Shown one piece after another: positions 26,521 through 64,000 of a stretch of DNA of 64,000 nt; position 1 is the stretch's first letter, and each line of letters opens with the position of its first letter. The DNA is taken from assembly GCA_032358255.1 (NCBI GenBank), contig JAULBX010026385.1:166958-230957 (forward strand). The letters run 5' to 3'. This DNA comes from Heterotrichella gracilis. Taxonomy: Eukaryota; Sar; Xanthophyceae; Tribonematales; Xanthonemataceae. Below the pieces are notes generated by a model, which worked only from the letters and a program-made list of their open reading frames with translations, was not told the origin of the DNA and did no database searches. A program made the position numbers and the translations under genes.

Positions 26521-27790
26521 CGTGGCAGAGTTGCTGTACCGCCAGTTCTCAAAGGCGCCCACCGACACCCTCCCCGCCTCAAATATGTATGCCTCCTCAT
26601 TGGACAGCTTCTGGGTGATTTCCGTGGTGGCCTGGCTGCTGCTGATGGTGTGCGCCTTGGTCAACAGCTCCTGCAGGGTTTAGGAATTAGGGTTTTGTTG
26701 ACAAGTTTGAGGGTTCAGGGTTGAGCATTTGGTGGTGCCCAGGCTGCGGCTGATGGTGTGGGCCTGAATGAAGAGCTCATGTCATGGGCAAATGACATGC
26801 CAGGTTGAAGCGTAACATGGCCAGCCGCTCATCCCTCAACCCCAAAACCATGAACCGGGCCAAGCGCTCATCCCCTAAACCCTAAAGGGTACCCACCTTA
26901 AACCTCCCCTTGAAGGTGGTATTCATGAACCTGGCCAGCCGCTCATCCCCCGCCGCTTGGTTCAGCTTGAATGCCGCTGTGTAGTAGTAGGGGCAGCGCA
27001 TGCGCAGGTCCACGCACCCGTACCCAGCAGATAGCTTCTTCTCAAGCTTGTGGGAGTAGTACTTGGGCAGCCTGAGCAGGAAATGCGTCCAGAAGTCAGG
27101 ACAAGACAGTAGCTGCGTGGTCCAAGCTGGTACATGCTGACTTGTATTCTTGTACTGCTGGACCGCGTGACGCGAAGGTCCTCACAATGGGAAGGTGTTC
27201 ATGGCGCAAGTGAAGTAATGAGGAGGGGGGTTGGCATGCGCAAAATGGAATAAGGTGACAACGATGGACAGCAATCGTGAATGCAAATGCAATGCTAGAG
27301 TTCATATTTCAGTTCTACTCACATGGCGTTGACCATGTGCCTCTTGGCCAGCTGGATGGTGAGCCACAGCGGCAGGTCCACATCCACATCCGGCTCAAGG
27401 TCAGGCTTGTCTGAGGAGGGGTCCACCTGGCGTCCAATCTCTGCAGCCAGAAAACCACCCTTCAACCCTAAATCCCTAAAGCAGGGTTTGTCCAGGCGCC
27501 TCAGTGCACCCCATTTGCAGCGGTCAGGATGCAGAGTAATCTCAGAGGAAACTCAGTGTTTCATGTGGGAGGCTCCTGTGGGAGTTCCCCTGTAGTGGTT
27601 TGTGACAAGCGCGTGAATGCCCCTTTGTCGCATGCAGTGACTCACTATCAATGCAGACGTGCATGAGATGGAAGTAGCTACCCAGGTTGGTAATATGCGC
27701 ACCTGCACAGCCGTTCACAAGGGCGCATGGTATACTGATAAGCTGGGAAAGCGTGTCGTGGATGTCATCATAGTTGCTTGACCACGCCAT
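26461..27790 (-). CDS. PSF3: GINS complex subunit PSF3 (Sld5-Psf1-Psf2-Psf3)
   Basis: Four exons: 27790-27682, 27440-27323, 27071-26897 and 26670-26461, with all phases agreeing. The product is about 203 residues, against 216 in human GINS3. The N-terminus NYDDIHDTLSQLISIPC matches the PSF3 start. DVDLPLWLTIQLAKRHMV is the conserved VELPLWLA strand-helix. LPKYYSHKLEKKL, VDLRMRCPYYYTAAFKL and TFKGRF..ELLTKAHT follow in family order, and the last helix is SVGAFENWR. PSF3 is part of the GINS tetramer in the CMG replicative helicase and is needed for origin firing and fork progression in the nucleus. The gene sits immediately downstream of RPC9 on the same strand, with under 100 bases between. 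Intron copies of exon pieces are listed separately. Confidence 0.92.
26730..26965. repeat. Intronic copies of PSF3 exon ends with CCCTAAA tract
   Basis: The exon 3 segment around 26934-26960 (CTGGCCAGCCGCTCATCCCC) is repeated in the intron at about 26815-26838 and 26850-26875; the second copy is joined to CCCCTAAACCCTAAAGGG. A copy of the exon 4 start (GCTGATGGTGTG, exon 26640-26670) lies at about 26740-26790. These are partial copies of coding sequence lying inside the same intron. Confidence 0.75.
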
Positions 27791-27886
27791 GGCGCTTGCC
27801 AGGCTCGGCGCTACAAGTCCTGCTAGACCAGCTAGACCCGTTGGCCCCAAACTCCACTCCGCCGCTGCATGGCCTGATATGGTATT

Positions 27887-28747
27887 TTAAGGCTGTGAAG
27901 TATTTTGGATGGTGTCGATGAGGAGGTCCAATTTATCCTCTAGAGGCGCAAGTCGATCCTCACAGTCCTCCACAACCTAGCATGCGGATGACTGTGTCAG
28001 GACCCTGCTGCGGGTATGGGCAAGCCAGGTATGCAGGTGCTTGGACAGTGTTGCGTCACCTGAGTTAGGATTCTCGGCAGGCAAGTCAGAGTGTGTGGCC
28101 AGGGGCCTGGTGCTGCCAGTGTGCAAACTTGAGGTTTAAGGACCATAAAAGTCTTAGTCTTTGACAGCAGCATACTGCTGGCCACTTGCTTGCTGGCAGG
28201 TCACAACTAGTGACTGCAAGTAAGGTGGATTACTGTGTGGGTAGGGCTACGACTGCAGCCATCACTCACCAGGTGGACTTCCACAGGGCTGGTGGGTTTC
28301 AAGTTCAGCAACTGGAGGATCTCCGCCTTGGTTAGGCCGCTCCTTTCCAGTGGGAAGTCCTGGAGGGACAGCAGCCAAGTCTGTTAGAGTTCCAAAACTG
28401 GCCAGTCAACAGGGTTTGAACTTTTGCCAAGGCAGCCACTACCTGTAGCGCCTTGACTGCCTGCTGCAGCTGTTCGCGAGACAACACCTTGCCCCCTTGT
28501 TGCTGTATTAGGTACTCGTACACCTGCAGCACGATGGCGGGTGATGACCAGGAACAGACAAGGGTTGCTGCGAGTACTGGAGTGAGGATGTGGCTGGCGG
28601 ACCCACCTTCTTTTCTGAAGGCAAGCACTTGCCCTCTGTGCCAGGCAGGTCCGCCCCTCTGTCGACAAGCACTTGCAGCACTTCACAGTTTGTCAACAAA
28701 GCTGCGCTCCGCTCCACCCTATAGGAGGCAAGTGGGTGCTCACACAT
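27887..28747 (-). CDS. RNA polymerase III subunit RPC9 (CRCP/Rpc17 family)
   Basis: Exons 28747-28607, 28523-28443, 28359-28271 and 27976-27887. The protein is about 130 residues. The start region RSAALLTNCEVLQVLVDRG matches the family N-terminus (NSALLSNYEVFQLL in animals). VYEYLIQQQGG..REQLQQAVKALQ is the middle helix. LTKAEILQLLNLKPTSPVEVHLV is the strongly conserved HRDC-like block, and VVEDCEDRL..EDKLDLLIDTI is the last helix. RPC9 pairs with RPC8 in the Pol III stalk and helps initiation on tRNA and 5S genes. The ATG at 28747 is the simplest start. An acceptor-like CCTATAG just before the codons for VERS would allow a separate upstream first exon, so the first ten residues are uncertain. 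Confidence 0.87.
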
Positions 28748-33323: not shown

Positions 33324-36300
33324 TTATTCAGTCATGACCAAGCAATACAATTTTGGATTGTACATCCAGCACTTGAGGTGGATGCAGGATGAAAGCAGTT
33401 GAGTTAGGATTTGACGTACAGGGAGGTGGTCTGAAGGGAATCGCTCTGAAGGGATGTAGCCATTCAGCTCTTCCAATGGCACTGGGATCTCTCGCCCAAC
33501 CTTCATCCGCCCTGGCTGGTACCAGATGTAGTCAAGGAGCCCTTGGTAGCCCTTGACGTAGTTGGTGTACGGCGTTTTGAGATCGTCGGTGGGCCGAAGT
33601 GCAAAGGGGATCTGCACATCAATCCCTGTAACTGCAATGTCCAGATCCACAGCATCTTCCGCCTCGGAATTTTCGTTGGACATGTGAGGGTTGGCAGTAC
33701 CATCGGTGGTGGCTGCGGTTGTGGTTTGCATCCTCGATTCAGCCTTGAGCTTAGCCTGCTCATCACCTGTGATGTCATCTGGATCTGCAGATGCAAGACC
33801 AGTGTTGGTCGCTTTACAACATTAGAACGTGGCATAAAGTCTGTAATGACAGACTTGGGTGGCGCGACTATAGTGTAAGAATGGCTGCTGATCCCTGCAA
33901 TTCTACTGGAAAGCAAGCATCTGATTGACTGTCTGTTCGAACATGTATCCGAGTATCATCTTTCCCTGACACCACAGTAGTCATGCAAACAAAAAGAATT
34001 GATAGCAGTTATGCTTGTGTGCAAGGACAGTTTTCATAGCTGGTTCAATACTCACCAGCTGCAGCCGCCATTTCTGTTGCAGATGGCTTGCCACGCCGTT
34101 TCCTGTCAAAGGTGAAATCTGCACCAAATGTCCAGTCCCAGTAGTCTGCTGACAGGCTCCCCTTTTGCAGCAGCTCCACCACACCTACAGAGTTGGCCAT
34201 TTTAGCCTATGTCAGCAATACATATGCAACACCTATGTCAGCAACACCTATAACTCCTTAATCAGGCCGCTCATGCAATGGAATCACACAATAGCACAAC
34301 AACAACTTTGTGCATGGTTCCCAGTGCACCCATACAAACCCATACCTGGTATGCCGTCATTGAGGTCGCTGTTCAAATCCCCACAGAACACCAGCGCTGG
34401 CCGCATGCCCTTCAACGCCGCTGCATGGGCAGGGTCTGCCACCAGCGCCTCAATGGCATCATGCGCCTCCTCAGCCAGCACAGCCGTGTGGATGTTTCGT
34501 ATGTGCGACGCCATCCAATGGTAGAACAGGTGGGTGTTGACCACGCACAGGGGCTGGTCGAGTCCCGGGGATGAACCAACAGGTGACAGAACCACCACCT
34601 GACCTATGGTGCCCACCCGCTGCAAGGCGGTGCTGAGAGCAGGGGAGGCTTGCAGCATGGGGTCAAACTGGTGGTGTCGATCGGGGTTTTCGGGGTCCAG
34701 GCACTGCTTGAGGATCACGTCTTTCACCAGCAGCTCCTGGAATCTGTCCTTCCTCCAAAACGTGGCGCTGCCTTCCCGCACCTTCCCAGCCTTGTTGGTG
34801 TAGTGGCCATCAAAACCTGCCCAGGGATCAACCCAGTTGTTGATTCATGACCTTCCACTTGATTCACAGTACCTGACCAGTCCAATAAGTTCTTTCTTAT
34901 CTGATTTCAAACAAAAATGATGCAGGTTTCAAAATGTTGAATTGGAACCAGCTGACTCATGCTGATGTCTGTACATACTGTGTACAGTGATGACATGTCT
35001 GTACATACTGTACACAGTGATTGGCTAAAAAGTGATTGGCTTTCTTCGTTGTAATACTGGGTGATTGTTACTGTGCTAACAGGTACCTTCACCTGTTACT
35101 AGCGTATAATTCAACAATGCTCTGCATGGGAGAATTAGATGTCCTATAACAGGGGGCTTGGTGAGTTACCTGCGTATGCCAGGTGTGGATACAGTCCATC
35201 AAGGAACATGCGCTCGTCCACCTCCTGTAGGCAGATGATGTCAGCATTGAAGCCCAGCAGCTCCTCGATGACCAATGGCCTTCGGTAGGATGAGTGCAAG
35301 AACCTGCAGGATGTGGTAAAACTTCCAATTCACTACGTGTTATTCAGCCTCCATGTGGTGGAAGGTAGTTGCAATTGTGTGCACATACTGGGTACTTGGC
35401 ACAGACTGATAGCCACCAAGACCATATATTCCCAGCAGAATGAACAAAGACTGCAGTAGAACATTGTTTAGGCGCAAGCCCAAAACGATTGGTAGCGGAA
35501 TTGGGATCAGCAAAGATAGTGTAAAGTATACAAAATCGGCGGCCCACAGGTAGCGCTCTTACTTGTTGGGGCAGTGCGCAAAGATGATCCCCTGCGCCCT
35601 CTCTGTGGCCGCGTACTGATCCGCCAGAATGTTGTACGTCACCACGCGCAGCCCGGGAGGGGCCAAGGAAGTTGCGGTCAGCTTTTGGCGGTTTGCACCA
35701 CTGCGCACTGACGGCCCCGCCTGTATGGGAGTCGATTCGCAGAGGACGGGTCGGCCATACACCACTGGTGTATTGCTGGATTGTGCTTCTGCTTCTTGTC
35801 TGCATCAAGCCATCCATTCAGCAGCCATGATTAGACAGAAAGAAAGGAAACACACACAGATTCATTCACTAGATGCGATTCAGTAGCACAATCAGACCAG
35901 TAAGCAGCCTTGCACCCAATTCACCACATGACCTCTCCAACGCCACTCCTCACATGCCATGCCACTCATCAACAGCCCCCCGGCCCAGTGCCGAACCCAG
36001 CATTGGTGCCAAGCATCGCCCATCCACTCACCTGCCTGGCGTGCACTCCACTTGAAGCACATACCCCACATCGTCGACACTTGGCGTATAGTGGCGGGTG
36101 GACACATCCAGGGCCTGCCACGTGGCGCTGCTGGGTGGGACTGGTCGGGCGGGGCGCCGCCACCAGCGCCATGTGCAGGCTGCCTCCTCAGAAAACAGGA
36201 GCTGCAGATACATGGGTTATAATCGACCATTAATTGGCGATGGAAACGTGCAGGCGGCCTCCTTTGAAAACAGGAGCTGCGAATATATAGGTAATGAAGG

Positions 36301-38700
36301 ACGATGAAGTGACGATATACACGATGATAACCCTCATTTTGACTCTTCTTGAGGGCGCAAGTCAAGCAAGCCTTGATCCTGATGTAAAAGCATCAGCAAA
36401 GATGGTTTTGAAGCACAGAGCATGGCAAAACCCAAGACATGCCACAGGTGTGGATGCTACGGCATGCATTGGCTTCTGCTCGCCATGTCACTCACCGATA
36501 CAACCGGCACCAGGGGGATCCCAACAAAGTGATAAAATGGGAGCTCCATCTGCACCACACCACATCAAGCTGTCAGTGGCTGTATGCATACATGCGCATG
36601 CACATGCACATTTAAAACCTAAACCCTCTGGTGGCCATGCACAGCTCACCCAGGTATGTGCGCCCTACAACGGACAATCAGTCCCTTGTACATACGACCA
36701 CGTATGGAGGGTTCAGGGGACTGCACAGGGTCGACCGTCAACCCTACCCCCCACACCATGGCTGAGTTAAGCACCACACCACCGTACATATGCTCTTGAT
36801 TATTGGATAGGGTGCTAAACCCTGAACCCTCACATAGTTTACCGGGTGGGTCAACCCCCCTGACCAAGCGCCCATGCTTGTAGGGTTTGACACAACAAGG
36901 GTACTCAACCCTACCGTTACTCCGGCCTGGAGCAATTTATATCACTGAAATTCTTGCCCTGACAGGTTTAAGGGCATTCTAGTGCAAAACAGCACCATTT
37001 CGAGCACGGACGACAGACATGGAAAGGACAACTTGTGAAGAGTAGTTATTGCTATGACACCGCCGTTGCCCCTTACCTTTTCCACCATGGGTGGGTTCAG
37101 CACCACCTCATACAGCTGTGCCCCAATCTGCAGCAGCTTGCCGCGCAACCAAGCCTCCTCATTGGTCAACCCCTCGTCCACTGGGGCGCTGTGGGTGGTG
37201 GGGTGGTGGGTGGGGTGGGAGGAATGGCATGGGTTGTGGGTTTTGATGCGCGATGTGTAGACAGGTGCATGGGGACGAGTGATGAAATGTAAGATGTTGG
37301 GGGTGGATGGTGGGGGGTGATGGGGTGGGGATGATTGTGGGGGAGGGATAGGGTGTGGAGGCCTGCAGCTGATGTGTGATGCAGGGATTATAGGGCAAGG
37401 GCAAATGGATATGATGCGCTGCCTGCTGCCTTCCTCACCTGGGAGTTGATGCGTAAACCCTAAAACCCTAAACCTAGACCCTTAACCCTAAAGTAGGTAT
37501 GGGGGTGGATGCGCTGCCTACTGCCTACCTCACCTGTCCAAAGTGGGCCCCTCATGCAGCGCCACAGCCACATCCTCAGCGCCTGCTGCTGCTGAGGGCG
37601 AGGCAGGCTGCTGAGCCTCTGGGCCCTTCTTGCGCTTCTGCTTCTTGTCTGCACCACCAGCACACCAGGGTCAACCAGAACTTAAAGATTGTTCCAGAAC
37701 ATAATGCACTATTAAACTATTTAAAGTATAATAAAATCTTTTCAACTATGTTCTTTTCAATTTTTGACGTTTTACATTTGAAATAATAGCTTAGAGGTGT
37801 ACTGTTGCACTGTTGTTTTCTCTGGAACGCATGCCATTAACTACTACGGGGTCAGCCAGCACACATATGGATGTCAGGCTGTGACATCATGTTTCAAGGT
37901 GTATACCACAGGCCACGTTGCATCAAGAATGATGGCATGGGTGATGCAAGGCGCCATGTGGCGCCACCCTGTCCCCACCTGGTGCAGGCTTGGCCTGTAT
38001 GCGCATGCGCGCCAGCACCTTCTGCAGCGGCTCTGTCTTCAGCCTGCACCACCACAGGCCTTAAAGTTATGGGATATCAAGATGTATGAATAACATATAT
38101 ATTTAATGATTTACAATGCCTACTGGCACCTTCTGCAGCGGCTCTGTCTTCAGCCTGCACCAAAAGTAGCAAGCCATGTCATGATCTGGTGCCCTTTGTC
38201 CGCATCAGAGCAGGTAATGTCCCAACGCCAGGTGTAACTGATCTGAGCTACAACGAATTCCAGCAGTACAGCCAGGTTCTGGCACCCTTTGATGCACAGA
38301 TTGTGCGCAAGGGTAGATAGGAAAAGCGTCAAACCAAATGCAATGGTACCCCCCTCCCCTCCCATTTTGATTCTCCGCTGTCGCCCCCTAGATGGCTGCC
38401 CACCTGTCCATATTGCGCTGCCTGCCTGCGATGTCCAGTCGTATAACCAAGGTTGCATCCCCAGGCACTGATTTGACAATGGCCTGGATAGCACCGGCGT
38501 TCTCGTTAAAACTCGGGGGTGCCACATGGCGGGGCGGGTGGCCAGTCGTGTGTGGAATGCACGGGTCAGCATCCGGAACAGTGGGGTTAAATACAATCTG
38601 TATGATCACACAGGTGCAGTTCTGCTTGCTGGCAACACAAGTCCCGGCCCAGGCATGCCCACCCGCCCGCAATCATGCATATGCCGTCATGCAGTTTCAG
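33324..38700 (-). CDS. PDE12-like 2',5'-phosphodiesterase / deadenylase (EEP family), 5' end unresolved
   Basis: Minus-strand exons: about 38690-38390 (QIVFNPTVPDAD...GRQRNMD), about 38045-37982 (LKTEPLQKVLARM), 37648-37534 (KKQKRKKGPE), 37188-37077 (NEEAWLRGKLLQIG), about 36555-36497 (ELPFYHFVGIPLVPV), 36201-36032 (SVDDVGYVLQVECTPG), 35799-35573, 35303-35170, 34816-34346, 34184-34056 and 33784-33324. Catalytic EEP motifs appear in order: VVTYNILADQY, CLQEVDE, GFDGHYTNK, VNTHLFYHW, FCGDLNSD and FPSDHLPV. The N-terminal sandwich (Y-x-P-S-DDVG-x-L) is as in PDE12, which degrades 2',5'-oligoadenylate and trims mitochondrial poly(A). Mitochondrial location is inference, as the first exon was not found; a possible fragment (TTALMEAMKQ) lies near 39000. 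An 80-residue acidic insert precedes the last catalytic block. Confidence 0.82.
36172..36290. repeat. Partial copy of a PDE12 exon start
   Basis: The exon start and acceptor region at about 36174-36225 (GCAGGCTGCCTCCTCAGAAA, then ACAGGAGCTGC) recurs at 36250-36292 (GCAGGCGGCCTCCTTTGAAA, then ACAGGAGCTGC). The copy lies in the intron just upstream in gene direction. Confidence 0.75.
37405..37545. repeat. Exon-end copies flanking a CCCTAAA-like tract in PDE12
   Basis: GATGCGCTGCCTGCTGCCTTCCTCACCTG at about 37413-37441 matches GATGCGCTGCCTACTGCCTACCTCACCTG at 37508-37536, which is the donor of exon 37648-37534. The copies are separated by a tract of CCCTAAA variants (about 37455-37493). Confidence 0.85.
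38020..38161. repeat. Copy of the PDE12 exon LKTEPLQ start
   Basis: CACCTTCTGCAGCGGCTCTG followed by TCTTCAGCCTGCACCA at about 38017-38052 recurs at about 38127-38162. The two copies are identical over about 36 bases. The proximal one is the exon and the other sits in the adjacent intron. Confidence 0.85.
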
Positions 38701-38797
38701 TAGATCACATCCCAACGCTGAAGCACAATCATAGATGCTGATTTGTAATCCTATCATGCAGTTTACCGCACCCACAACTCTTGATGGCCTCCATGGA

Positions 38798-38840
38798 TAA
38801 ACCCTAAACCCTACGTCTAAACCCTAAACCCTAAACCCCA
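38798..38840. repeat. CCCTAAA telomere-like tract
   Basis: Four to five plant-type telomere units with two imperfect ones. It lies near a repeated GATGGCCTCCATGGA/CATGGCCTCCATGAG sequence (38783 and 38980). Confidence 0.85.
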
Positions 38841-39039
38841 CATCCTAAACTCGCAAACCGCAATGCATGCATATTGGTATCATTAGCAAGCTCCGTACTC
38901 GACTTCCAAATGCTGCAATGCACCTAACAGCGACAACTTTGCAACACGAAAATGCAATTCATCACACACACCTGCTTCATGGCCTCCATGAGCGCTGTGG
39001 TTGAGAAGGGCTGCTGGGTTGCTTGCTGTGCGGTACGTG

Positions 39040-39877: not shown

Positions 39878-44846
<4,969 letters not shown>

Positions 44847-46387: not shown

Positions 46388-48966
46388 CTACACAAACTCC
46401 TGTGCCGATGCCTGCTTGGCACCTGAGAACCAGCTGTCCCTTGGCGTGCCTGGCGCCTTCTTTGATGCCACCACCTCCACCACCCGGTTGTAGCTGCGCT
46501 CCCCCTGTGCCACTGCCTCAGCAATCACCTCAGCCACCTGGAACAGGCACAGGGGGCCATCACGCTGTGCCAGTAGCTTAAAATAAATGGCTTGAATAAA
46601 ATAAACACTACAAGTTTAATAATCATTGACAGGGACGGGGCGCCATTGCGCTGTGAGTGCCAGACTGGGGTTAATGTATTATTTTTAAAGACCTTTCATT
46701 ACTGTCCCGAAACCCATACCACAGTGCATAGTAACGCATTGCCTTCCACTGGAAGTTCCAGAACCAATGCGCCTGGTCAACAAAAATGCTGCATGGTTTT
46801 TCATATCTTCATCATTTGGTATCGACAATACCTGTGCGCGTGCCACCTTGTTGCCAGGGTCGGTCGGCAGGCCAAAGAATGCATCCTCGCCACCCACCAC
46901 AATCTCACCCATCTTCTCGGGAGCGTCGTTGGTCAGGTTTGCCGGCCTGTGGGTGTGGGCAACAATCCAAGATGACTATTCAGGCAGCTCGGTGACAACG
47001 ACAGAGTGGCTCTGTTGCAAATTCTGGTGCACTACTCCAACCATGCATTGCCAGTGCCTTGTACGCATTATTTACAGGCTCCTTTACAGGTGTTTACTGC
47101 CGTCTTTGCCGCCAAATAAAAAATAAATAAATAGCTACGCAGCCTGTCCTTGAACAAGCGCGTTGGTCAAGGTCTTTGCCGCCATACGCATCGCCAACGC
47201 TGGGCGCGCATGGTGACAGCATCGCACAACAACTGCATTTATGTGACATCGAAAGCTTTGCCCTGCACAGGAGCACTATGCTGCATACCTGACAATGGTG
47301 TAAGGAATCCCAGACTTCCTCAGATACTCTTCTGCCTGCACATACCCACATGAATTGCTGTCACGAGCATGCACATATGGCTGGCATCAAAAGCAGGTCA
47401 TGATGCGCAACTGCTGTTTTGGATATAATATGCGGATTCTTTCAGCGCCATGACCATGATTGTCTATATTGAATAACGGGTTAGGGCTTCCTATCCAGCA
47501 CGTTGACGTTTTGTTTTATTGGTTTACCATTCTGGATTAGGGTTTCCGTATTAGGGTTTAGGGTTCAGGGTACCTCGCGCTTCCTATCCAGCACGTTGAT
47601 GAATGCATTGAGCATGGCGTACTGGATGCGCGCCAACCAGCCGTGCCCCTCCTTCGCCCCGGTCAGCAGTGATGTCTGGATGACAAGGTGCTCCACACCC
47701 GCTGCTTTGGCCGCCGCAATCAAGTTGATGCTCCCCTGGGGAGAAACCCACAGATGGCGTTTTGCAATGTGACCATAAAACGTTCATTATAATTTGTAAA
47801 GACCTTTACAGGAACAATGAAGAAATGGGTAGATATGGGTGTAACAATTTCGTGCAGTCAACGCAGCACATGTGCCATTAAATATTCAGTAGGTATGCAT
47901 GGTTCACAGAGAGGTCGACCCCAATAATCCAGCAAAAAGACAGGTTGAGGTGCGCAGCGGATCTGCTGCATCTGCCTGATCCGTACCTCCCCATCCACTT
48001 GCGCGAAGCCGGCCTTGTCAAAGTGGCCCCCGTTGTAACCCAGCGCACTGACAACCACTGCTGCATCCCCAATGGCCTCCTGGATATGCCTGTAACAGCC
48101 AAGATTGGGTTGTGAATCACAACTTGTGATTCATTATGGCAGTAAGTTGCTGTTGCTGCAGCAAAAAGCAGATTTATATAACCGTACAATTGGTTGTGGT
48201 GGCATGGATCTCGCATCCGATTGAATAAAAAAGCTGGCACTTTGTTGTTGTGCTACTGCACCCACCGGCTGTTCAACCATCCACTACCCCAAAATCCCAG
48301 ACCCTAAACTCTAGACCCTAGACCCTGCACTTACCCCGGTCCTGCCGTCACATTGCACTGCACAAGCTCCACCCCGTCGTCTTTGTCAAACCCCAAAGCC
48401 TTGGCCTTCTCCAGACCCTGTAAACACCAACCCAATGTGGTTTGTATCTACTACTCACTAAGAGGTACGACGTTACCCTAAGGGTTTGAACCACTGCAGT
48501 GCTTACCCGGACAGCTGCTTTGACCGGATATCCCTTTGCCCGCAGCTGCTTCACAATCTCTGCCCCTGTCTGGCCCGTGGCACCGGCGACAAACACCTGC
48601 GCAGTGGGTCGTACACAATCACCGGCCCTCCACCTAGACATGCAGACTCTGGAACCAATGTATACATGCGTGCATACTGCTGTAACAGTTGCTGATGCGC
48701 GGCGGTAGTACCAGTGAGTGGGCGTGGTCCTCGCGCATACTTAGATGAGGCGGTTATTCATCATACTGTCAGTCCAATGGCTGGATTAGACATGTTCTCC
48801 TATGGTACGCCATGGTAAGAGCCATAAACCAGTGGCAGAACATATTACACCCTCCTGCAGGTCAACAGTATGAAGGTGATAGCTGCAGTACCTTTGGCAA
48901 AGGCTTAGATTTCTTGATGGTTACAGTCCCATCTTCTGTCTTCTCCCCACTGGCACTAGTCACCAT
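46388..48966 (-). CDS. Atypical short-chain dehydrogenase, At2g34460-like (NAD(P)-binding, probably plastid)
   Basis: Exons: 48966-48892 (upstream part uncertain), 48596-48507, 48417 to about 48336, 48089-47997, 47735-47574, about 47335-47289, 46946-46832 and 46537-46388. The N-terminal glycine motif VFVAGATGQTGAEIV is the Rossmann dinucleotide-binding loop of atypical SDRs. It is followed by LRAKGYPVKAAVR, VELVQCNVT, AAVVVSALGY, GSINLIAAAKAAGVEHLVIQTSLLTG, AEEYLRKSGIPYTIVRPANLTND and VAEVIAEAV, all in the order of the Arabidopsis At2g34460 family, which is plastid located. The classical YxxxK pair is absent, as usual for this NmrA/TIC62-like group. The start at 48966 gives a 25-residue polar leader. 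The preceding acceptor at 48982 implies an upstream exon, where a transit peptide would be encoded. Confidence 0.88.
47484..47606. repeat. SDR exon-end copy joined to TTTAGGG sequence
   Basis: GCTTCCTATCCAGCACGTTGA at about 47487-47507 repeats the exon end at 47579-47599. Between the copies are GATTAGGGTTTCCGTATTAG and GGTTTAGGGTTCAGGG (47534-47570). Confidence 0.85.
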
Positions 48967-53794: not shown

Positions 53795-55173
53795 CTGGGG
53801 ACTGATGCGGTGCAGCATCAGGGGGCCGATGTAGGGTACATATGCAGGGGGAGCGACAGCCCAGAGCCACGCTGAGGCACATGAGGGGTTGGGTGGCGCG
53901 CCTTGGCAGGGTGGCAGCTTTAGCAGCTTTAGCAGCGTTTGAGTGCTGTGAGTACAGATAATCTGAGGGCCCCAGTGGGTGAGGTAAAGAGCCTGACACC
54001 CTTTAATGAGAAAGGGTGTGTGCGTGTTAGGGTTTAGGGTTTGGGTCCAGGCCCCAGAGGCGCTTTCGTTAGTGCCAACGTGAACAGCAAGTCAAGGGGT
54101 TTTGCCTACCGCCCATTTTTTTTGTTTGGGTAATCACTCATGGGTCTGCCGTTGGGTATTCAATCACCAACAAATTCATTTTTTGGGGAAAACGACAAAC
54201 GATTTCCAGAATACCACTCTTTTTTGTCCGAAACTCGTTTAGTTTTACAGCTTTGGGTGGGGCGTAGATGTCATGGGTTCAATTTGCACACTTCCAAACG
54301 ATAATGCAATTCCTTCATGCATAGGCACAGCGTTCTAGGTAAACCTTTCATAGTTTTCGCACACCGTGCGGATTGAATTACTCTTGTGAGGCGCTTCAAA
54401 ACTTACATCCTGGTGAAGCATAGGGCACCGGCCTGGGGTTGCATGGTCTGGTTGCGCATAGGTTTCAACATTTTTACCTGCTCGTTTTCTTGTCGAGCAC
54501 CATGCCACATGCATGTAGCAGTTGGGTGGTGAGGCTGTGTGTGCAAAACCAGCAGATTAGCAGTTGCCGTTCAAAGTCAGTTGGCATTCAATGCAGCATT
54601 CAATGCAATTTGCGCCATTCTCAGAATCTGCCAGGGAGTCAGTGACCCCGGGACTGCAAAAGATGCACTTTACCCAGTGCAACTCTGTCCGGGACCCACC
54701 CAATCCTACGACAGTACGTGTAATTACAGCAACTGCAGAGTCTCGATTACACATCAACAATTGGTACTCTGAAGGTCCTGGGAGTGCCAACCTGGTGATC
54801 CATGGCAATCCTGGATGGACCATCTGTTCACAGGACGTGGGCTGGCTCAGGCTCTGAGCCTGTCTGTCTGCCGCAGGCTGCATCAGCTGCATACTGTAAC
54901 TGCTACATGCGTTGCTTTTCTAACCGCGCAACTGTTTGCCCGAGCCCATTGTGCTATAAAAGATACACCCCACATTTTACGAGCCCATTGTGCTATAGAA
55001 GATACACCTCACATTTTAACCTGAATCACTTCCCCACAGATTCCAGGCAGGGGCGCTCACCCAATAACCCCAAGAACTATCCCTGCCCCAGGCTGACCCA
55101 GTATTCATTCCATGCGGCATCACCCCCTCTGCACACCCCACACCCAGCCAATCAGCTGTCTCCACCCTTGCCA
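53795..55173. other. Convergent spacer between carrier and THO2
   Basis: Holds both 3' flanks. GTTAGGGTTTAGGGTTTGGG lies at 54028-54047. A twofold repeat of the phrase GAGCCCATTGTGCTATA, each followed by GAAGATACACC or similar, lies at 54943-55017 (period about 42). No gene recognised. Confidence 0.5.
54941..55018. repeat. Two-unit direct repeat, period about 40
   Basis: GAGCCCATTGTGCTATAAAA followed by GATACACCCCACATTTTAC, then GAGCCCATTGTGCTATAGAA followed by GATACACCTCACATTTTAA. Near-identical tandem units just beyond the THO2 3' end. Confidence 0.85.
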
Positions 55174-58100
55174 TCATTCCCCCCCCTCCCCTGCATCGCC
55201 GCCCCTCCCCTTGCCCTCCTCCTCCCTTGCCCGCGCCCGCTTGCTCGCCACAATCCTGTCCAACACATTCGAGGCCCCCCCCGCCTCCCCGCGCTGGCGC
55301 CCCCCCCCCCTGCCCCCCACCGGCACAGCAGCAGCTTCAGCAGGGCGCTCGTAGACCTCCCCTCGCTTGCTGTTCCCCACCTTGGCCCCCGACATTTCAC
55401 CATCGGGGCTGGCATCGCGCGCAGCCCCCTTGCTGCGCGAGCTTGCGCGCTCCTTGTGTGGCTTGTCTCCCTTGTGGCTCTCCTCCCTATCCTTGTCCTT
55501 ATCCTTGTCCTTGTCCTTGTGCTTCTCCTTGTGTTTCTCCTTGTGAGGCTTGTCCTTGTCCCTCCCCTTGTCGCCATCCGCGTCGTCACCACCCCGCTTC
55601 TCCTTCTACACAAACATACAGGGAAGTATGTCAGCCGGGGTGCGCGAAAGCCCTAAACCCTAAACCCCGCTTCTCCATCTGCACGCACACAGGAGGTGCC
55701 TCAGCTGGGGTGCTCAAAACCCAAGGGCATACACAGCATTTACCCCCTAGGGCTTGCAAAGCGCCCTAAGACAATGCTGCCAATGTGCACGATTGACAAT
55801 AGCATTCAATCAATGCGCATCTCAAATAGTCTGTGGAACATCTCCCCCCCACATTCACCGTACCTTTGCCTTTTCTTTCTCCTTTGACTTCCCCTTGCCC
55901 CTCCCCTTGTCCCCCTCCCTCCCCTTGTCCCTCTCCCCGTCCTTGTCCTTGTGCTTCCCGCCCTTGTCACGCTTGCTGTCACGCTCCTCAACAGCCTCCA
56001 CTGATGCATCTGCACACACCACACGCCCCACATGGATTACCAACATGCAGGAAATGCTGTATGCGCACCAGAGGTGTTGGTGATGCACAAAGCCTACTGC
56101 GAATTGCAACGCCAAACAGCCCTACACCGCAACCATGGCGCCAACACTGTAGATGTGCATCTCCTACCTTAACCTGCACAGAAGCTTGTGTAACAAGTGA
56201 CAAGATATAGGCTAGGGTTTAGAGGGACGTGCTGCGGGTTTTGACACACGACGATCCAGGGTCTAGCGAAATACTTATGGTCATCATGGATACAGGGAGG
56301 GTATGGCCACGCACCCTCAGCAGGCTCGGTTTTCCTTGCCTTGTGCCTCTCCTCCCTGACCACCTCCTGGGATCGCTCATCCTCTTCCCTTGCCCGCTTA
56401 CGCTCACCCCCCCGCTTGCTTCCCTCGCCATCATCGCTCCCCCTGGCGCTCTCCCTCTCCCTCTCCCTCCCCTTGCCCTGCCCCTTCTCATCACCCTCAT
56501 CGCTCCCCCTGCCCCGCCCACTCTCCCTGCCCCTCCCCTTGCCCTTGTCATCCCCAGACTCCTCCCGCTTGTCCTTGCTCGCATCTTCCCTCCCCTTGCC
56601 CTTCGCCTCCCGGGGATCCTCCTTGGCCGTTTGCCGGGATTCGCGATCCTTGGACTCTGCCCTGGCCTTGCTGGGAGCTGGCGGCTGGTCCTCCCGCGCT
56701 GATTTCACATCCTCCCTGGCCTTGAATTTCTGCTCCCGAGCCTCCCTGACCTCCTCCCTCCCCTTGGGTTTTTCATCCCGGGGATCCTCCCTCCCCTTGG
56801 ATTTGTCATCCCGGGGATCCTCCTTTGCTGTCTGCCGGGAATCGAGATCCCTGGACCCGGCCCTGGGCTGGAAGCGGATTGGCTCCCTCGCTCCCCCTCG
56901 ACCCTGTGGCTTCTCCTCCCGACCCCCTTCTTCCCTCCCCTTTGGCTTCTCCTCCCGGCCCCCCTCCTCCCTCCCCTTGGACTTCTCCTCCCGCCCCCCC
57001 TCTTCCCTCCCCTTGGACTTCTCCTCCCGCCCCTCCCTGGCCCCCTTGCAGTCATCAGCTGCAGCAGGGGTCTTCTCATCCCTCCCTCCATTGGCCTTCT
57101 CCTCCCGAGCCTCCCTAGCATCCTCCCTCCCCTTGGGTTTGTCATCCCGACCCTCCCTCGCTTCCTCCTTCCCCTTGGGTTTCTCATCCCTGCCCCCCTT
57201 GTGGCGGTCATCCGCTGCAGGGGGGGGACCAGGCAGCTCCCGGTCATCCCTCCCCTTGGATTTGCCCTCTGATTGCCCCCCTGGATCGGCCCTGTGCCTG
57301 CAATAGTGGAGAGCGGCAGGTGAGTACTCCCATCGGTGGTGGTTCACACAGCAGAGTTATGCGTGCACGGCATGCATATCGCACACCCTTCCCAAGCGCA
57401 TATGGCACGGTGATGACAGGCTTTCAAGGCCAGACGGTGTAATGACGGCGTCAGTGAACACACCACAAGTCATGTTGGCATGCACACAGTCACCAGGATA
57501 TGAGCCCCAGTTCACAAATCCCGAGTCATGATGATGAACACATGCCCACACTCTTTCCTACCTACGTCCACAGGGGCCACTCACTGCTTGTGTAGGGCTT
57601 AATGATAAAGGACTTGAGGCTTTCGGTTTCACACGCAGCCTAGTGGCACTCACCTACTGACGGCTGTATTGCTCGAGTGCATATAACCAACCAACTAAGT
57701 AACTTGTAACACTCACCGCTTGTGGTCATTGTTGGCCGGGGCGGGGGCAGGCTCCTCCGCCCTCCTTGGCTTGGCATCACCACCCCTCCTTAGGGTCACC
57801 TCCACGACCCTGGGGGCAGCGGAGGGTTCCCTCCCCTGGGACTGGTTCCCATTCCTCCCCTGGTCGCGCAAGGCAGGGGGTGGGGAGCGGGGGGGGAGGC
57901 CGGAGGGCGACGCCTGAAAGAGGGGAGGGGGCAGCGGTGAGGAAATAGAGCATCTCGTGATTGCTCACATAAACGACACTTAAATTGCAATAGTGGTTCA
58001 AACAGTGCCAGTAAAGAGCTGCGTGGCGCCGCATGTCCCAGACTGACTGCTAATCTGGCTGTATTGCTGGAAGGCATGTAACAAACCTACTAACTAACTA

Positions 58101-61100
58101 AATTGTAATGGTGTCCAGCTGATATATGGTCACAGGCAAGCATTCAGGTGCAATCAAGAGAAGTGTTGCCTGCAGGAAACCATTCATTGCCCAGACAGGG
58201 AAGAGCTCTTGCGCCCAGAAATCATTGCACAATGATGAATAGGCACGCGAGCACGCGAGCATGCGAGCAAATGGGGAGACACCACACATTTCCTTGTCCT
58301 GATACCTTAACCTCTAAACCCTAAAACGTACCCCTTCCTCCCTCCCCCTCTTCACACCGCGCGCATCCCTCCCCTGTGCCACAAACGGAGCAGCCTCCGC
58401 CCGCAGCTTGCTGGATGAGCCCACCCTCCCCACCGACCCCCCACCCTCCGGTGCAGGGGGCCCAGGGGGGGTGGCACCCGCCACGCCAGATGGGGAGCCC
58501 ACGGCCCCAGACCCTGATGAGGGTTTCACTCCGATGCCTGGCGGGAGCTTGGAGCGAGCGGCATCCAGGGGCTGCCGGGGCTTCGCAGGGGGCCCCGGGG
58601 GCTCCTTGGAGGTTTTTTCGGAGGGTTTTGGGTCCTCCTTGGGTGGCGCGTCGCGCGGGGGCTTGGGTGGGGCCTCCTTGGGGGGCTTGTCGGAGGGCTT
58701 CTCCGAGGGCTTGGAGGGTTTATCGGAGGGTTTCTCAGAGGGCTTGGAGGGTTTCTCGGAGGGTTTTGAGGGTTTCTCCGAGGGCTTGGGCTTGCTCTGT
58801 GCCTTGCTGCCATCCTTGGCTGCTGCAGGCTGCTGCACAAGAAAAAGGAGGGGTTCAAGCTTGATGTCATGTGTGCGGTGGGGGGTGCGGGGCGTTCACA
58901 GTGAAATGGCAGGGCAAGGAGAAGAAACAGCTACTCTGTTGATCACTGGCTCCATGTCCATCAACCGTTGTCGATCACAGGGCCACATCAATTTCCAATT
59001 GATCCATGGGACTGTGAATCAACTAGTGACATTATTATCCTCCTTGATTGATCCAACCACCCCCCGTCTCCCTTCCTCACCTGCACCTTTGCCCCCCCGG
59101 CCGCCTCACTCCCTGCCGGCTTGCCCCCTGCCGCCGCTGCTGTGCCCGACCGAGCCGCGCTGGCGGTTGAGGGCCCGGACTTCTTCTGAGTAGAGTCCTT
59201 TAGCCCACACTCGGTGTAGGTCTTGAACCTACGCAAGTGGGTGGGAGGGTGTTTAGGGTTTAGGGTTTAGGGACCTATTTGTGAGCAGAATCCTTCAGCT
59301 CACACTCCCTGTAGGTCTTGAACCATGGCAAGTGGGTGAAAGGGTATTCTAGGGTTTTTATCGTAAGGTTTTCACCCACCTGCCCGGGATTGCACGCTCC
59401 CCCTTGAGCGCCGTGAGGTAGGACGACGTGATTGTCTTGATGTCCTGCCGCCCATCCTCGGCATTCAGCTTCTTGATCTTGGCGGTCAGCGAGTCCACGT
59501 GGTTTTGGAAGTAGGGGAACACCTGGGGGCAAGGGAAGAAGATTAGGGTAAGAAATAGCTGCTTGCTAGGGTTTTGGGTAGGGTTTTATACTATCAGGTG
59601 GGTTTGGAAGTAGGGGAACACCTGGGGGCAGGGAAGAGGATTAGGATAAGAAACAGCTACTTGTTAGGGTTTCGGTAAGGTTTTTTGACCATCAGGTGGT
59701 GGTGGAAGCAGGGGAACACCTGGGGGCAGGGAGGGGGCAGGCTGAGAAAACAATGCAAGGTAGGGGGAGACACCTGCAAAATCAGCACGTTCTGCATGAC
59801 CACCATCAAGGCTGCACCCCCCACTCCCCCCACCCCCACCCACCTTGATGAGCTTGTTGAGCACCACCATGGCGTTCCCGATGTGGATGTGCTCCTTGCT
59901 GCTGATGCAGGCCAGGAAGGTGGCATTCGCCACCCAAATGCACACTCCCCATCCACCATTAGCAATTCCAAATGACCACCACGATGTGAACGCACCCCCC
60001 TTACACCCCCATCCCCACCCCACCTTGATCAGCTTGTTGAGCACCATCATGGCGTTTCTGATGTGGATGTGCGATGCATGCCAGGAAGGTGGCATGCACC
60101 ACCCAAACGCACATTCCCCCCACCCCCCCAACACCTTCATCAGCATGGTCCGTATGAACACCACCATGCGGCTGCACCCCTCACCCCCACCCACCTTGAT
60201 CAGCTTGTTGAGCACCATCATGGCGTTTCTGATGTGGATGTGCTCCTTGCTGCTGATACAAGCCAGGAAGGTGGCGTGCAGCTCCGACTGCCAGTGCTTG
60301 AATAGGTTGCGGAACTTGTCAAACTCGCAGTGGGGAGAGTTGGGGTCCCCGTTGCCGGTGGTGAAGCCCGGCTTGGGGCGGCACTCGCGGGTGTAGGTCT
60401 CCTCGTTCTGCAGGGGGGTGGGCAGGGTTAGAGTAGGGTTTTGGGCGGCACACGTGTAGGTGTTCTCGCTCTGCAGCGGGTGGGGTGATGTTTCCAGGGG
60501 GTGTTGGCAATGATTGCAGTAGGCATGCCACACTGGAAACAACGTTTAACCAAGGCTTTCGGCTCTAGAATGGGCGCGAGGTCATGCCCATCGTAACCAC
60601 GCTTCACAGGGCTGTAATGCACACATTTACTCACATGTTTGCTCAAGTAGAAAACACATACGACACCAACCCAACCCCGATCAGACACTACTCCCACTCC
60701 GTCATTACACCCCATCATCCCACGCAGTCCCACATACCATCCATCGCTGGATGACCGCCATGCACTCCCGCAGGAAGATGCCCAGGTTGGCAGCGTCTCG
60801 GTCGGTGCAGCACAGCAGCAGCTTGCACAGCTCGCGCATGGTCTGCGGGCAAATCACAGGGTTTTGTCAGGGATTTGGTGCACAGCATGCGCAGGGGGGG
60901 ACTACAACTTCTTTTCCGCTGTTTTTCATTTTTCAGTTTTTTTGGGTCAGGGTTTTGGGTGGGTTTAATGTGCAACACAGCAGCAGATTGCACAGCCTGC
61001 ACATAATAATGGTGCGCCTGTGCGTACGTGGGTATAGGGTTTTAGATAGGGTGTTGGGTGCAGCACAGCAGCAGGCACACCACTTCAAATTCGCCGCTAC

Positions 61101-64000
61101 ACCCCTCTTCCAAAACCCTACCGTGTTGTAGAAGAACAGCGTGGAGAAGTAGGGCAGCTCCAGCCGGTGCAGCACCTCGGTCAGGTGCGCGCAGTACATG
61201 GCGTCCGCGGGGGAGTAGCACACCCGCGGGATGATGCAGTGGGTCATCAGCATGGCCACAAACATCTTCTTCACCTTGAGCCCGGACAGCAGGGTGGCGG
61301 ACTGGCTGCGCAGGCGGGCGGTGACGGCGGCCACGCGCGCCTTCTGGCGGGCCGCCTCCTCGGGAAGCTTCTGCAGCACGCCCTGCACAGGAGGTTGGGT
61401 ACAAATTTCATCACTGCTTTTCACATTTGGTCCTCTTTGGGAGGGTGGTTTGGTGGTTTTGACCATGGGCTTTCAAGATAACCAGGCCACCCGCTCCTCC
61501 TTGTCATGCCTGATTAGGGTTTAGGGTTTTAGGGTGGTCAGTTTACCACACCTGCAGGTGCTCCACCTCCTTCTCCAGTGCCTTGAGGTCCAACCGCTCC
61601 TCCTCACTAAGCGCCTAATTAGGGTTAAGGGCTTTAGGGTTTTAAGGCTTTAGGGTTTTCGGGTACTGTACCTGCAGGTGCTCCACCTCCTTCTCCAGTG
61701 CCTTGAGGTCCACCCGCTCCTCCTCGCTCAGCGCCTGGGGCTCATACTCCCTGCCCCGGTACCTTGACCGCTCATCCTCCACCCGCAGCTGATCCTGCTT
61801 GGCACGCAGGGCCGACTTGACCTTGTCGGCCTCAAGCTGGTACCTGGGAGGGATTTGGGTAACTGTGGTTAGAAGTTTGTTAAGAAATTGCATCTGAAAG
61901 GCCAGGGAAACGCCCTGCCACCAAACCACGAAACCCTAGACCCTCATCTTTCAGCCGAGTGGCAGACGCCTGCGAGGGCAAGCTGCCAGTGGAGCATAAA
62001 CCCCTACACCCTGAACCCTAAACCAGCCCCTCACCTCTCGGCTGGGAAATGGATATCCGCGTATGTCAGCTGCCAGAACATGATGTAGAACTCGAGGGAT
62101 ATGCTTTGCCGATGGACCGTGAAGCCCTACAACCAGAACCCTAACCACTAAACCCTAAACCAGCCACTCACCTCTCCGCGGGGAAGTGGATGTCTGCGTA
62201 TGTGAGCTGCCAGAACATGATGTAGAACTCAGGGGACATGCTCTGCCACACCGCTTCGGGCAGCATGGGCTTCACATCAGCCACCAGGCGCTCCCACTGG
62301 GCACTGGCACTGGCACGGGCTGCGGCACCCGCCTCATCCGATAGCTCGCCTTCCTCGCCTGCATAGTGGTGGGGATAGTAAGAATACCGTACCAAGCTAA
62401 ACCCTGCTCGGCAACAGCGCTCCAATGCTGTACTTAGTAATTTGTGGATGTTTTTATTTAGGCATGGGTGGACAATGTCGGTCGGTGCTCCCAGCGTGCA
62501 CTGGCAATGGCGTGGGCGGCTGCACCCGCCTCATCCAATACCTCGCCCTCCTCGCCTGCAGGGTTGATTAGTTGATTACATGCATTTCACCAGTACAGCC
62601 AGATAAGTAGTCAATCTTGCACCTGCGTCGCTACGCAGTTGTTGGCCCCGCTGGATAAGGGGTAAGGGTGCACCCACCTCCCGTTTGGTTGTCAACATGC
62701 TCCCCCTCCTCAATCTCCCCGTCTTCAACCACATCCTTTTCACCCCCTTGCTCCTGGGGGGCCGCGCCGGGGGGCGAAATGTCTGCGATCGCGGCGCGGT
62801 GCGCGTCGAAAATGACTTCGGGGTCCAAATGGTAGTCGTGCAGCATGTCCCCCATGGGGGGCAGCATTGCGGCGTATTCCTCGGGGCTCAACGCCACCCG
62901 GAGGAACTCAATGTACTGCACAATAGGGTTTGCATCAGGGTTTTGGTTTTGAGGCAGGAGCTTGAATTTTACATGACAGCTGCCTACTATTTCTCGGGCA
63001 CAATGCCATGCGCACAAACTCAATGTAACGCACAAAAAAGGTTCTGCATCAAAGTTCACGTTTCAGGGTTTAAAGTGATACCTGTTTGAGCGTCTCCGTG
63101 CACGCGTCGTACATCTCGGCCGTGTGCTGCAGGTGCGAGGAGTGCGCCTTGGTGGCAATGGCTGATCGCTGCTGGGCGATGAGCACCAGCAGGGGCATGG
63201 TCAGCTGGTGTTCGGGAGGACCCTGCAGGGGTGAAGGAGAATTGTGAGTATGTAAGGGGGTTGGCGAGGCGCGGGGTGGGTTATTGGGTATGTGACGAGC
63301 GGTGGTGGGGTCAGTGGAGTGGGTGGGGTGGACAGGATTGCACAGCCTACCATGGCCCAACCACAGCCACCCCCGACACGCAAACCCACACGCATGCAAG
63401 TGCCGCCAGGTGCTGTACAATCCCCCCACCTTTCGTACCCCTTCCAGCACACAACACCACCACACCACTGCTACACCACCCACCTGCCGCAGCGCCGCAG
63501 CCAGCCTCTGTACATTGTCCCTTGCCTTCTTGTAGCATGTGAGTGGGTGGTGGCGCTGGGAGGCAATGGAGCAGCGCAGCCACACACCACCCGCAAGCAC
63601 CTCGGTGTCGCTCACATCCTCAATGGCCTCAATACCCTGCAAAGCAGAGTAAGCCACACGAATTTCAGTTGGGTGATCACAAGGGGTTGGGGGGAGGGGG
63701 GAGGGGCCAGAGCATTGAGAGGGTTGGGCGGAGCATCACATGGCCATTTATGGGCTGTGGACTGCAGATGATTTTTTTTAGCTCAATTGATTGGAGGTTA
63801 CGTTTCTCGTTTTTCGGCCTGACCTTCATGGCACTTGTTACCCGAATCCGCACTACACCCCTTTCCCCTCCCTGCAGCATGATGAGATCATACAGTGGGA
63901 GCCACGTAACTAAGTAAGGTTTGTCAGGTGTTTTTAAAATCCGTGTCGAGCCGAAACCACCTGCACCCATCAGGGCCTGCTTACCTGGCTAATTTGGTTC
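55174..64000 (-). CDS. THO2: THO complex subunit 2 (THOC2/THO2), 5' part beyond the window
   Basis: Minus-strand exons: 63636-63484, 63222-63082, 62915-62678, 62358-62172, 61843-61672, 61382-61122, 60842-60738, 60407-60195, 59522-59380, 59228-59081, 58832-58332, 57913-57717, 57297-56315, 56009-55864 and 55605-55174. Conserved blocks in THOC2 order: LTMPLLVLIAQQRSAI, AEMYDACTETL, VWQSMSPEFYIMFWQLTYADIHFP, MLMTHCIIPRVCYSPADAMYC, YFSTLFFYNT, LGIFLRECMAVIQRWM, YTRECRPKPGF, FRNLFKHWQSELH and EHIHIRNAMMVLNKLI. Exon 58832 onward encodes a very long low-complexity tail: KPSEKPS repeats, then REEKSKGREEGG-type repeats, then DKDKDKDK. This fits the charged, RNA-binding THOC2 tail. THO couples transcription to mRNP packaging and export in the nucleus. 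Exon borders in the tail are less sure than the core. The N-terminal half of the protein lies beyond base 64000. Confidence 0.88.
55590..55722. repeat. THO2 exon-start copy next to CCCTAAA tract
   Basis: CCCCGCTTCTCCTTCTACAC, GGAAGTATGTCAGCCGGGGTG (about 55592-55645) recurs as CCCCGCTTCTCCATCTGCAC, GGAGGTGCCTCAGCTGGGGTG (about 55664-55713). AACCCTAAACCCTAAACCCC lies between at 55652-55668. Confidence 0.85.
56880..57190 (-). repeat. Coding minisatellite in the THO2 tail
   Basis: Tandem units of about 36 bases encoding variants of G-R-E-E-K-[SP]-K-G-R-E-E-G repeat at least four times at 56917-57040. Looser units continue to 57190. All stay in frame on the minus strand. Unit count is likely to vary between strains. 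Confidence 0.85.
58650..58800 (-). repeat. KPSEKPS coding repeat in the THO2 tail
   Basis: A short unit (GGCTTCTCCGAGGG-type on the plus strand) is repeated about eight times, encoding tandem KPSEKPS/KPSDKPS heptads near the start of exon 58832-58332. Confidence 0.9.
59165..59345. repeat. THO2 exon-start copy across a TTTAGGG tract
   Basis: The exon start at 59170-59245 (TAGGTCTTGAACCTACGCAAGTGGGTG and flank) recurs at 59284-59345 (TAGGTCTTGAACCATGGCAAGTGGGTG). GTTTAGGGTTTAGGGTTTAGGG (59251-59272) separates the copies. Confidence 0.9.
59500..59745. repeat. Three copies of a THO2 exon start
   Basis: TTTGGAAGTAGGGGAACACC and TGGGGGCA.GG(A/G)AG..GATTAGG at about 59508-59550, 59602-59645 and 59700-59735 (period about 94). 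Each is followed by variants of TTGCTAGGGTTTTGGGTAGGG. The first is the exon 59522-59380 acceptor region. Confidence 0.9.
59840..60275. repeat. Three copies of the THO2 exon EHIHIRNAMMVLNKLI
   Basis: CACCTTGATGAGCTTGTTGAGCACC... occurs at about 59841-59935, 60020-60105 (with an internal gap) and 60190-60275. The 60190 copy is continuous with the rest of the exon (to 60407). The other two lie in the downstream intron and keep the GT donor, and one keeps the open frame with R changed to G. All three copies are readable in one frame for about 290 codons without a stop. Confidence 0.9.
60378..60490. repeat. THO2 exon-start copy with TTAGGG-like junction
   Basis: GGCGGCACTCGCGGGTGTAGGTCTCCTCGTTCTGCAGGGG (60378-60417) recurs as GGCGGCACACGTGTAGGTGTTCTCGCTCTGCAGCGGG (60446-60481). 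GGTTAGAGTAGGGTTTTGGG lies between. Confidence 0.88.
60800..61082. repeat. THO2 exon-end copies with TTAGGG-like junctions
   Basis: GTGCAGCACAGCAGCAGCTTGCACAGC (60806-60832) recurs at about 60970-61000 (GTGCAACACAGCAGCAGATTGCACAGCCTGCAC), and a third partial copy lies at 61058-61082. GTCAGGGTTTTGGGTGGG and ATAGGGTTTTAGATAGGG sit beside the copies. Confidence 0.82.
61548..61735. repeat. Duplicated THO2 exon 3' half across TTTAGGG-like tract
   Basis: CCTGCAGGTGCTCCACCTCCTTCTCCAGTGCCTTGAGGTCC(A/C)ACCGCTCCTCCTC at 61551-61612 and 61671-61732, nearly identical over 60 bases. TTAGGGTTAAGGGCTTTAGG and further TTTAGGG variants (61618-61662) lie between. Confidence 0.93.
62035..62255. repeat. Duplicated THO2 exon end with CCCTAAA tract
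   Basis: CACCTCTCGGCTGGGAAATG and about 60 more bases (62033-62110) match 62169-62245 at roughly 85%. The pieces between carry ACCCTAACCACTAAACCCTAAACC (62138-62162), and AACCCTAAACC at 62017-62027 leads the distal copy. The proximal copy is the exon. Confidence 0.92.
62285..62562. repeat. Duplicated THO2 exon start
   Basis: GCGCTCCCACTGGGCACTGG and on to the CCTCGCCTGCA acceptor (62288-62362) recurs in diverged form at 62485-62561 (GTGCTCCCAGCGTGCACTGG). No clear telomere-like tract lies between. Confidence 0.88.

Follow-up and report, generated by a model that had tools for sequence, protein, structure and literature searches.

Results

Gene content and duplicated exon edges of the window

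The window, the whole 64-kb stretch of DNA analysed here, represents the final part of contig C387 in a 68.5-Mb genome that is assembled in 903 contigs. Pfam supports genes for a GINS protein (Sld5), a member of the endonuclease/exonuclease/phosphatase family (which fits PDE12), a Tho2 protein, an NAD(P)-binding protein and GH1. Another gene recognised by eye is presumably eL14, and ARAGORN detected no tRNA in the window. In the GINS/PSF3-like gene (reverse strand, assigned by Pfam Sld5), copies of an exon end lie at 26814..26950 with CCCTAAACCCTAAA between them; this gene model also matches Rpb4 and may fuse two genes. Further duplications on the reverse strand involve splice sites. At 36173..36280, a 3' splice site and the adjoining exon start are present twice (33 bp, 91% identity) as a near-complete tandem unit without telomeric heptamer. 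At 37413..37536, a 5' splice site is duplicated (29 bp, 93%) with telomere-like filler between the copies, and at 38015..38162 a 3' splice site with its exon start occurs twice (37 bp, 100%), the copies being separated by AT-rich filler that lacks a telomeric heptamer. An organellar origin of this AT-rich filler was discarded after one stretch of it (38045-38130) had been searched against the genome and had matched itself alone.

On the forward strand, the GH1 gene carries an exon end (..AILDCLE) and the start of the next exon (HGMEPM..) twice each at 40452..41324, and GTGAGTGGTTAGGGTTTAGGG is located 3' of one 5' splice site. At 41801..41940, a 47-bp exon piece is copied into the intron (89%) with CCCTAAA-type filler in between, and at 42140..42570 an exon end together with the intron start occurs three times at a spacing of about 176-212 bp, with TTTAGGG tracts in the intronic part. 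Back on the reverse strand, an SDR-like NAD(P)-binding gene (Pfam NAD_binding_10) harbours an exact intronic copy of a 21-bp exon piece with TTTAGGG-type filler (47486..47599), and among the 21-bp copies at 55591..55684 CCCTAAACCCTAA terminates at the second copy. At 59499..59728, an exon-edge unit of 98 bp occurs 2.4 times in tandem and includes degenerate TTAGGG-like sequence; an exon/intron unit of 171 bp, present about twice in tandem at 59904..60280, is free of telomeric heptamers. In the THO2-like gene (Pfam Tho2, same strand), a 67-bp exon end with its 5' splice site is present twice at 61550..61736 (96%), and CCCTAAA-type sequence lies between the copies and again past the copy. A 97-bp exon end with its 5' splice site is duplicated at 62014..62247 (89%); here, the telomeric heptamer lies within both copies and belongs to the copies themselves, not to the gap. 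In addition, the window contains protein repeats inside exons (56785-57264; 58693-58789), and at 34965-35021 and 54941-55018 noncoding sequence is simply repeated in tandem. Positions 62568-62638, roughly 70 bases, have some twenty more partial copies genome-wide at 78-88% identity, two of which lie within 150 bases of contig starts.

For THO2 and GH1, the extra segments were largely unaligned in the single solved-structure alignment displayed for each, which fits lineage-specific copies, and we infer that these segments are intronic. DNA searches of the genome retrieved no second copy of the duplicated parts of two gene regions. A GH1 paralogue on contig C739 was considered as an empty site; it carries no duplication of the gapped kind, yet with differently placed exon boundaries it is not a valid comparison.

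Abundance and structure of the local copies

For quantification, we used a 254-kb sample consisting of the window and 19 further stretches, each 10 kb long and placed at positions set beforehand; two of them sit on the window's own contig. L009 and L020, which looked bacterial, and L017, the first 10 kb of contig C387 with 8127 of its 10000 bases being N, were removed ahead of the counts. L009 (contig C1, 894 kb) and L020 (contig C100) have a GC content of 35-36% and long intronless ORFs of bacterial type, which by eye we take to be dCMP deaminase-like, NifU-like and L-aspartate oxidase-like and of Bacteroidota-like origin. Judging by these two stretches, the assembly seems to include bacterial contigs.

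The sample was scanned by self-comparison within 600 bases, and two passes of third-order Markov shuffles served as null. Low-complexity copies and copies with at least 40% telomere-like words were filtered out, and gapped pairs were defined as copies with a gap of 8-300 bases. The 254 kb yielded 82 local copy pairs, and neither shuffled pass produced any, which makes chance an unlikely source of the duplications. The local duplications are real. With its many contigs, its N stretches and its bacterial-looking contigs the assembly might be suspected of having created them, but most pairs diverge by several percent, which is not a product of read misplacement, and the pattern is seen on many contigs. 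Thus, we give an assembly artefact next to no weight. The earlier note had counted about twenty sites between 26730 and 63070; this number is approached by 17 scan clusters, including five window pairs that were lost to the complexity filter and restored, plus at least one duplication that the scan missed and that was seen by eye (the GH1 exon end at ~40.7 and ~40.9 kb). All five restored pairs also entered the unit-completeness and polarity analyses and three of them the abutment test.

Copy length peaks at 20-50 bases and the distance between copies at 60-120. At equal thresholds, 70 gapped pairs were direct (head-to-tail) and 6 inverted, as expected of overhang fill-in. Template-switch repair with inverted copying was rejected, since only these 6 inverted pairs were present and five of them were noncoding. 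Gapped extension of 55 pairs (the 50 of a non-redundant set with one pair per locus and the five restored ones) classified 19 as nearly complete tandem units, 10 as intermediate and 26 as covering less than 60% of the period; the extension score of 5 is below the 95% chance level of 7, which biases these calls towards complete units. At L002, the telomeric tract recurs after the second copy, which is the layout of a tandem unit. At window positions 38015 and 47486 and at L013 3776 the copies are identical and the filler is not repeated, so that the filler there is not merely decayed sequence. In L019 (5028-5388), a mini-exon and flanking intron pieces are repeated about four times with a unit of ~105 bases, and TTTAGGG-like sequence runs into the copy start.

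Copies on either side of a filler resemble the target duplications that flank an insert, and a mobile element or introner family inserting at exon edges would leave such a structure. The fillers of L019 and L022 even share a 31-base match that extends beyond the telomeric sequence. Apart from this match, however, the fillers of different loci in the 254-kb sample have only telomeric sequence in common, the AT-rich filler at 38045-38130 has no relative in the genome search, and copy lengths range from 17 to more than 70 bases. We therefore rejected such an element as highly improbable.

Preference for exon edges

Exons and introns were called with a small purpose-written gene finder, which was trained on seven pieces and retrieved the splice consensuses CAG/GTG and TGCAG/G. 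Three window GH1 exons found by Pfam were among the training pieces, so that agreement there is not independent. Predicted exon edges are included in 13 of the 17 window clusters between 26730 and 63070; the other four are the two protein repeats inside exons and the two plain tandem repeats in noncoding sequence. In the non-redundant set (13 gapped pairs from the window, 37 from elsewhere) 42 pairs have one or both copies in contact with an exon and 8 lie entirely in noncoding sequence, compared with about 24 and 26 for random placement. Between genes, copies cover 0.4% of the sequence; coverage is highest around the two splice sites, reaching 5-6% on the exonic flank of the 5' site and about 4% at the 3' site. 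When splice-site content was scored with a simple weight matrix, 35 of the 50 pairs were positive, which does not stand out clearly from the 29 for placement anywhere and the 26 for placement in introns. The excess of exon-touching pairs, together with the 82 pairs against none in the shuffles, supports the claim that a recurrent process copies exon ends into introns.

When the copies were masked before gene finding, 33 of the 50 pairs lay near an exon (22.3 expected; highest of 12 placements 31), and 27 had exactly one copy near an exon (13.6 expected; highest of 12 placements 20). The exon-edge excess thus persists after masking, but it is smaller, and the contrast depends in part on our own gene finder. 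Seven plain tandem pairs were all noncoding (Fisher p=2e-5), and with a looser complexity filter 2 of 11 such pairs were wholly in exons. GC content alone was dismissed as a cause, copy coverage increasing with GC in introns and not between genes. Simulation of uniform duplication with slower decay in exons gave edge-to-noncoding ratios of 204:273 and 138:465, and the observed ratio of exon-touching to noncoding pairs is 42:8, or 37:8 without five pairs wholly inside exons. In this simulation, slower decay of exon copies would account for only part of the exon-edge preference.

The telomeric repeat and its distribution

Arrays of TTTAGGG begin contigs C70, C140, C526, C609, C717 and C770 in telomere orientation, and a telomerase RNA-binding domain is encoded on contig C626. 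TTTAGGG is therefore very likely the telomeric repeat of this organism, which we would take to be an alga from its telomeres and the structure of its genes. Genome-wide, three-unit telomeric matches number 406+428 compared with 0 for the reversed motif, and most of those listed are internal, so that short internal runs of the organism's own telomeric repeat, as in interstitial telomeric sequences, are present.

In the 254-kb sample we counted 157 exact heptamers, 142 of them in predicted introns, which make up 49% of the sequence, 13 between genes and 2 in exons. This corresponds to densities of 1.15, 0.21 and 0.03 per kb for introns, intergenic sequence and exons (0.24, 0.11 and 0.17 for the reversed motif); heptamers are about five times denser in introns than between genes. 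They occur along the entire intron and in both orientations, sense CCCTAAA tracts numbering 53 vs 37 (p=0.11). Their density is highest in short predicted introns, with ~3 per kb below 120 bases compared with 0.6-1.0 above 250. Telomeric heptamer density varies strongly along one contig: positions 1-25000 of the window, which are gene-dense according to the gene finder and include what we take by eye to be a kinesin-like gene (16.9-25.1 kb), contain just three exact heptamers, unlike the region of 26-63 kb. In the flanks of 188 tracts, the most enriched words were telomere-like, with CCTACC (5 vs 0.5) and GCCCAC (6 vs 0.8) also enriched; the idea that telomerase-RNA sequence lies beside the tracts was abandoned on this result.

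Association of telomeric repeats with the copies

An exact TTTAGGG or CCCTAAA lies between the copies of 17 of the 70 gapped pairs. Shifted positions gave 5.2, any of 133 permuted heptamers at most 4, and segments matched for exon/intron content 4.1; intron length was unmatched in this last control, and heptamers are denser in short introns. Counting one pair per locus, the heptamer is found in 10 of 50 pairs (2.7 expected), with 5 of 13 in the window (0.8 expected) and 5 of 37 elsewhere (2.2 expected, p=0.06). Within the window, the spans of 8 of the 17 clusters contain an exact heptamer, 7 of them between the copies, and several further gaps contain degenerate telomeric variants only. In an earlier, cruder run, pairs with a heptamer numbered 5 of 11 in the window (0.5 expected), 5 of 25 in 16 stretches (1.7 expected) and 2 of 6 at eight tract-centred loci (1.1 expected, not significant).

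Pure three-unit tracts were studied separately at tract-centred loci, namely the first eight of the genome match list and ten that were picked by hand with longer runs favoured; L006 was excluded because it overlaps L005. Here, 5 of 21 tracts lie between copies, whereas gaps cover 2.3% of all sequence (p 9e-5) and 3.4% of intron sequence (p 7e-4). At four of these five (L002, L003, L032, L034) the tract is part of a unit that is itself repeated. No copies surround the other 16 tracts; three of them lie too close to a stretch end for a verdict. We detected neither abutment nor a significant telomerase-predicted polarity: in 20 gaps the mean distance from the tract to the nearest copy edge was 20.4 bases compared with 17.8 if random, and the polarity count was 22 vs 15 (p=0.32). 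Tract edges are often degenerate, which limits the power of this test.

These data modify several statements of the earlier note. The motif had been placed between or beside the copies in most cases, and the 17 of 70 pairs and 7 of 17 window clusters fall short of this; nor does it sit exactly there, given its distance from the copy edges, but both orientations do occur as described. To call the copies often sealed with telomere sequence overstates an association that does exceed the matched controls: it concerns 17 of the 70 pairs and comes with neither abutment nor a significant polarity. The predicted enrichment at duplications appeared in the full set and was weaker outside the window. Duplications and telomeric repeats might be separate features without causal link, introns simply being rich in both. 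The intronic concentration of the heptamer, its preference for short introns, the borderline value outside the window and the absence of abutment and polarity would all agree with this; the exon/intron-matched segments (4.1 vs 17 observed) and the excess of pure tracts between copies disagree with it, and we regard such independence as unlikely. The link between telomeric repeats and duplications is probably genuine, though confined to a minority of events.

A link might also run from the tract to the duplication. If the G-rich repeat stalled replication or broke, restart upstream would copy the exon edge, the intron start and the tract, so that tracts already present in introns would seed the duplications. 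Such a seeding role explains units that contain tracts: the tract lies inside the unit and is repeated after the later copy at window positions 42140-42570 and 61550 and at L002, L003, L016, L019, L023 and L032. It would also be in line with the 19 of 55 nearly complete tandem units, with heptamers throughout the intron length and with the instability of internal telomeric repeats described for other systems in the available text of PMC6410037. It does not sit well with the 53 of 70 gapped pairs that lack an exact heptamer between the copies, with the 16 of 21 pure tracts that have no copies around them, and with identical pairs whose filler does not recur after the second copy. On balance we treat seeding as a plausible contender, with a chance of roughly one in three and nearly as likely as repair of staggered breaks. 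Both mechanisms put forward in the earlier note, break repair with telomerase filler and slippage started by telomeric repeats, are retained as candidates.

Intron gain

It had also been suggested that duplication of AGGT-containing exon sequence leads to intron gain. When windows at the 5' and 3' junctions of up to 419 predicted introns were compared, no clear case of such a gain was found. Strong matches (score of at least 16) were seen in three introns and in none of the shuffles; two of them fall within a single array of tandem mini-exons, the third reflects duplication of a 3' splice site, and none is a clear gain. At lower scores there was a weak excess (12 vs 2.25 at score 9; 21 vs 6.6 at score 8), and old intron gains are possible.

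Discussion

Our preferred reading, which we hold tentatively and at somewhat less than an even chance, is that error-prone repair of staggered breaks in genes left the duplications behind as scars, with occasional telomerase filler and with the extra copy being spliced away. A staggered break in a gene would leave two overhangs that cover the same 20-100 bases, and when both sides are filled in and rejoined, a head-to-tail duplication would result. At some breaks the 3' end might first be extended by telomerase, or other filler added, which would place telomere-like DNA between the copies. If the unit spans an exon edge, one splice site would work and the other copy would leave with the intron, so that the gene survives; the intronic copy would then decay and the exonic copy be conserved. 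Break, fill-in, telomerase step and splicing outcome are our reconstruction. What we observed are the duplications, their direct orientation, the exon-edge bias, the telomere association, fillers without an element family, contig-start TTTAGGG and a telomerase domain. Staggered-break repair with occasional telomerase action would accommodate the direct orientation of the copies, their frequent filler and the link to telomeric repeats.

Several observations speak against repair of staggered breaks. The 53 heptamer-free gapped pairs count against it as well, and so do the missing abutment and polarity of the tracts and the non-redundant association outside the window (p=0.06). For the nearly complete tandem repeats, 19 of 55, the tract may predate the duplication. 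According to our simulation, random breaks with slower decay of exon copies would leave the exon-edge excess unexplained. A search for Stn1 of the CST complex, carried out without positive control, did not find this protein. Tandem duplications in plants can result from patch-mediated repair, as in rice, and from paired nicks. In favour of the proposed repair, both of its halves have been described before: in mammals, telomerase is used at breaks and some target duplications are formed, according to the accessible parts of two reports (PMC2246262, PMC7215372), and the accessible part of a third describes small tandem duplications generated by CST-Pol alpha fill-in (PMC8355091). A more far-reaching version of break repair, in which telomerase and C-strand fill-in are a routine intragenic repair, perhaps linked to transcription, and a main engine of intron lengthening in this alga through added telomeric filler and exon-edge duplications, appears rather improbable to us.

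If the pattern held genome-wide, the introns of one eukaryote would archive a large set of repair events and would reveal how telomerase acts on internal breaks in a non-mammal. Two processes known so far as separate ones, the insertion of telomeric sequence and small tandem duplication, would then be tied to the growth of introns and to competition between splice sites. Among the open-access matches listed, which mostly leave out subscription papers, none described telomere-associated duplications at algal exon edges.

Comparison with known systems

A potato study has reportedly described introns that slid or were gained when coding sequence was duplicated in tandem. In Drosophila, as far as the accessible text goes (PMC2891723), one copy of a duplicated exon sequence likewise becomes intronic during intron sliding or gain. 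In contrast to such cases, the present pattern looks like growth of existing introns from their edges, with no clear new intron. The small tandem duplications of CST-Pol alpha are, in the part of that paper available to us (PMC8355091), direct and short like ours, of which 70 were direct and 6 inverted; here, however, filler is often present, there is an exon-edge bias, and the CST machinery is putative. The interstitial telomeric sequences of primates, rodents and horse share with our tracts that they are short, lie far from the ends and are scarce in exons, again judging by the available sections (PMC2246262, PMC7215372). In these sections, plain duplication accompanies about 4.5-16% of the mammalian insertions, compared with the 5 of 21 pure tracts between copies in our data, and the share of human tracts that is intronic (31%) is said to agree with random insertion (PMC7215372), whereas 142 of our 157 heptamers are intronic. 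Taken together, each component of the pattern has known counterparts, and it is the intron bias and the density that are unusual.
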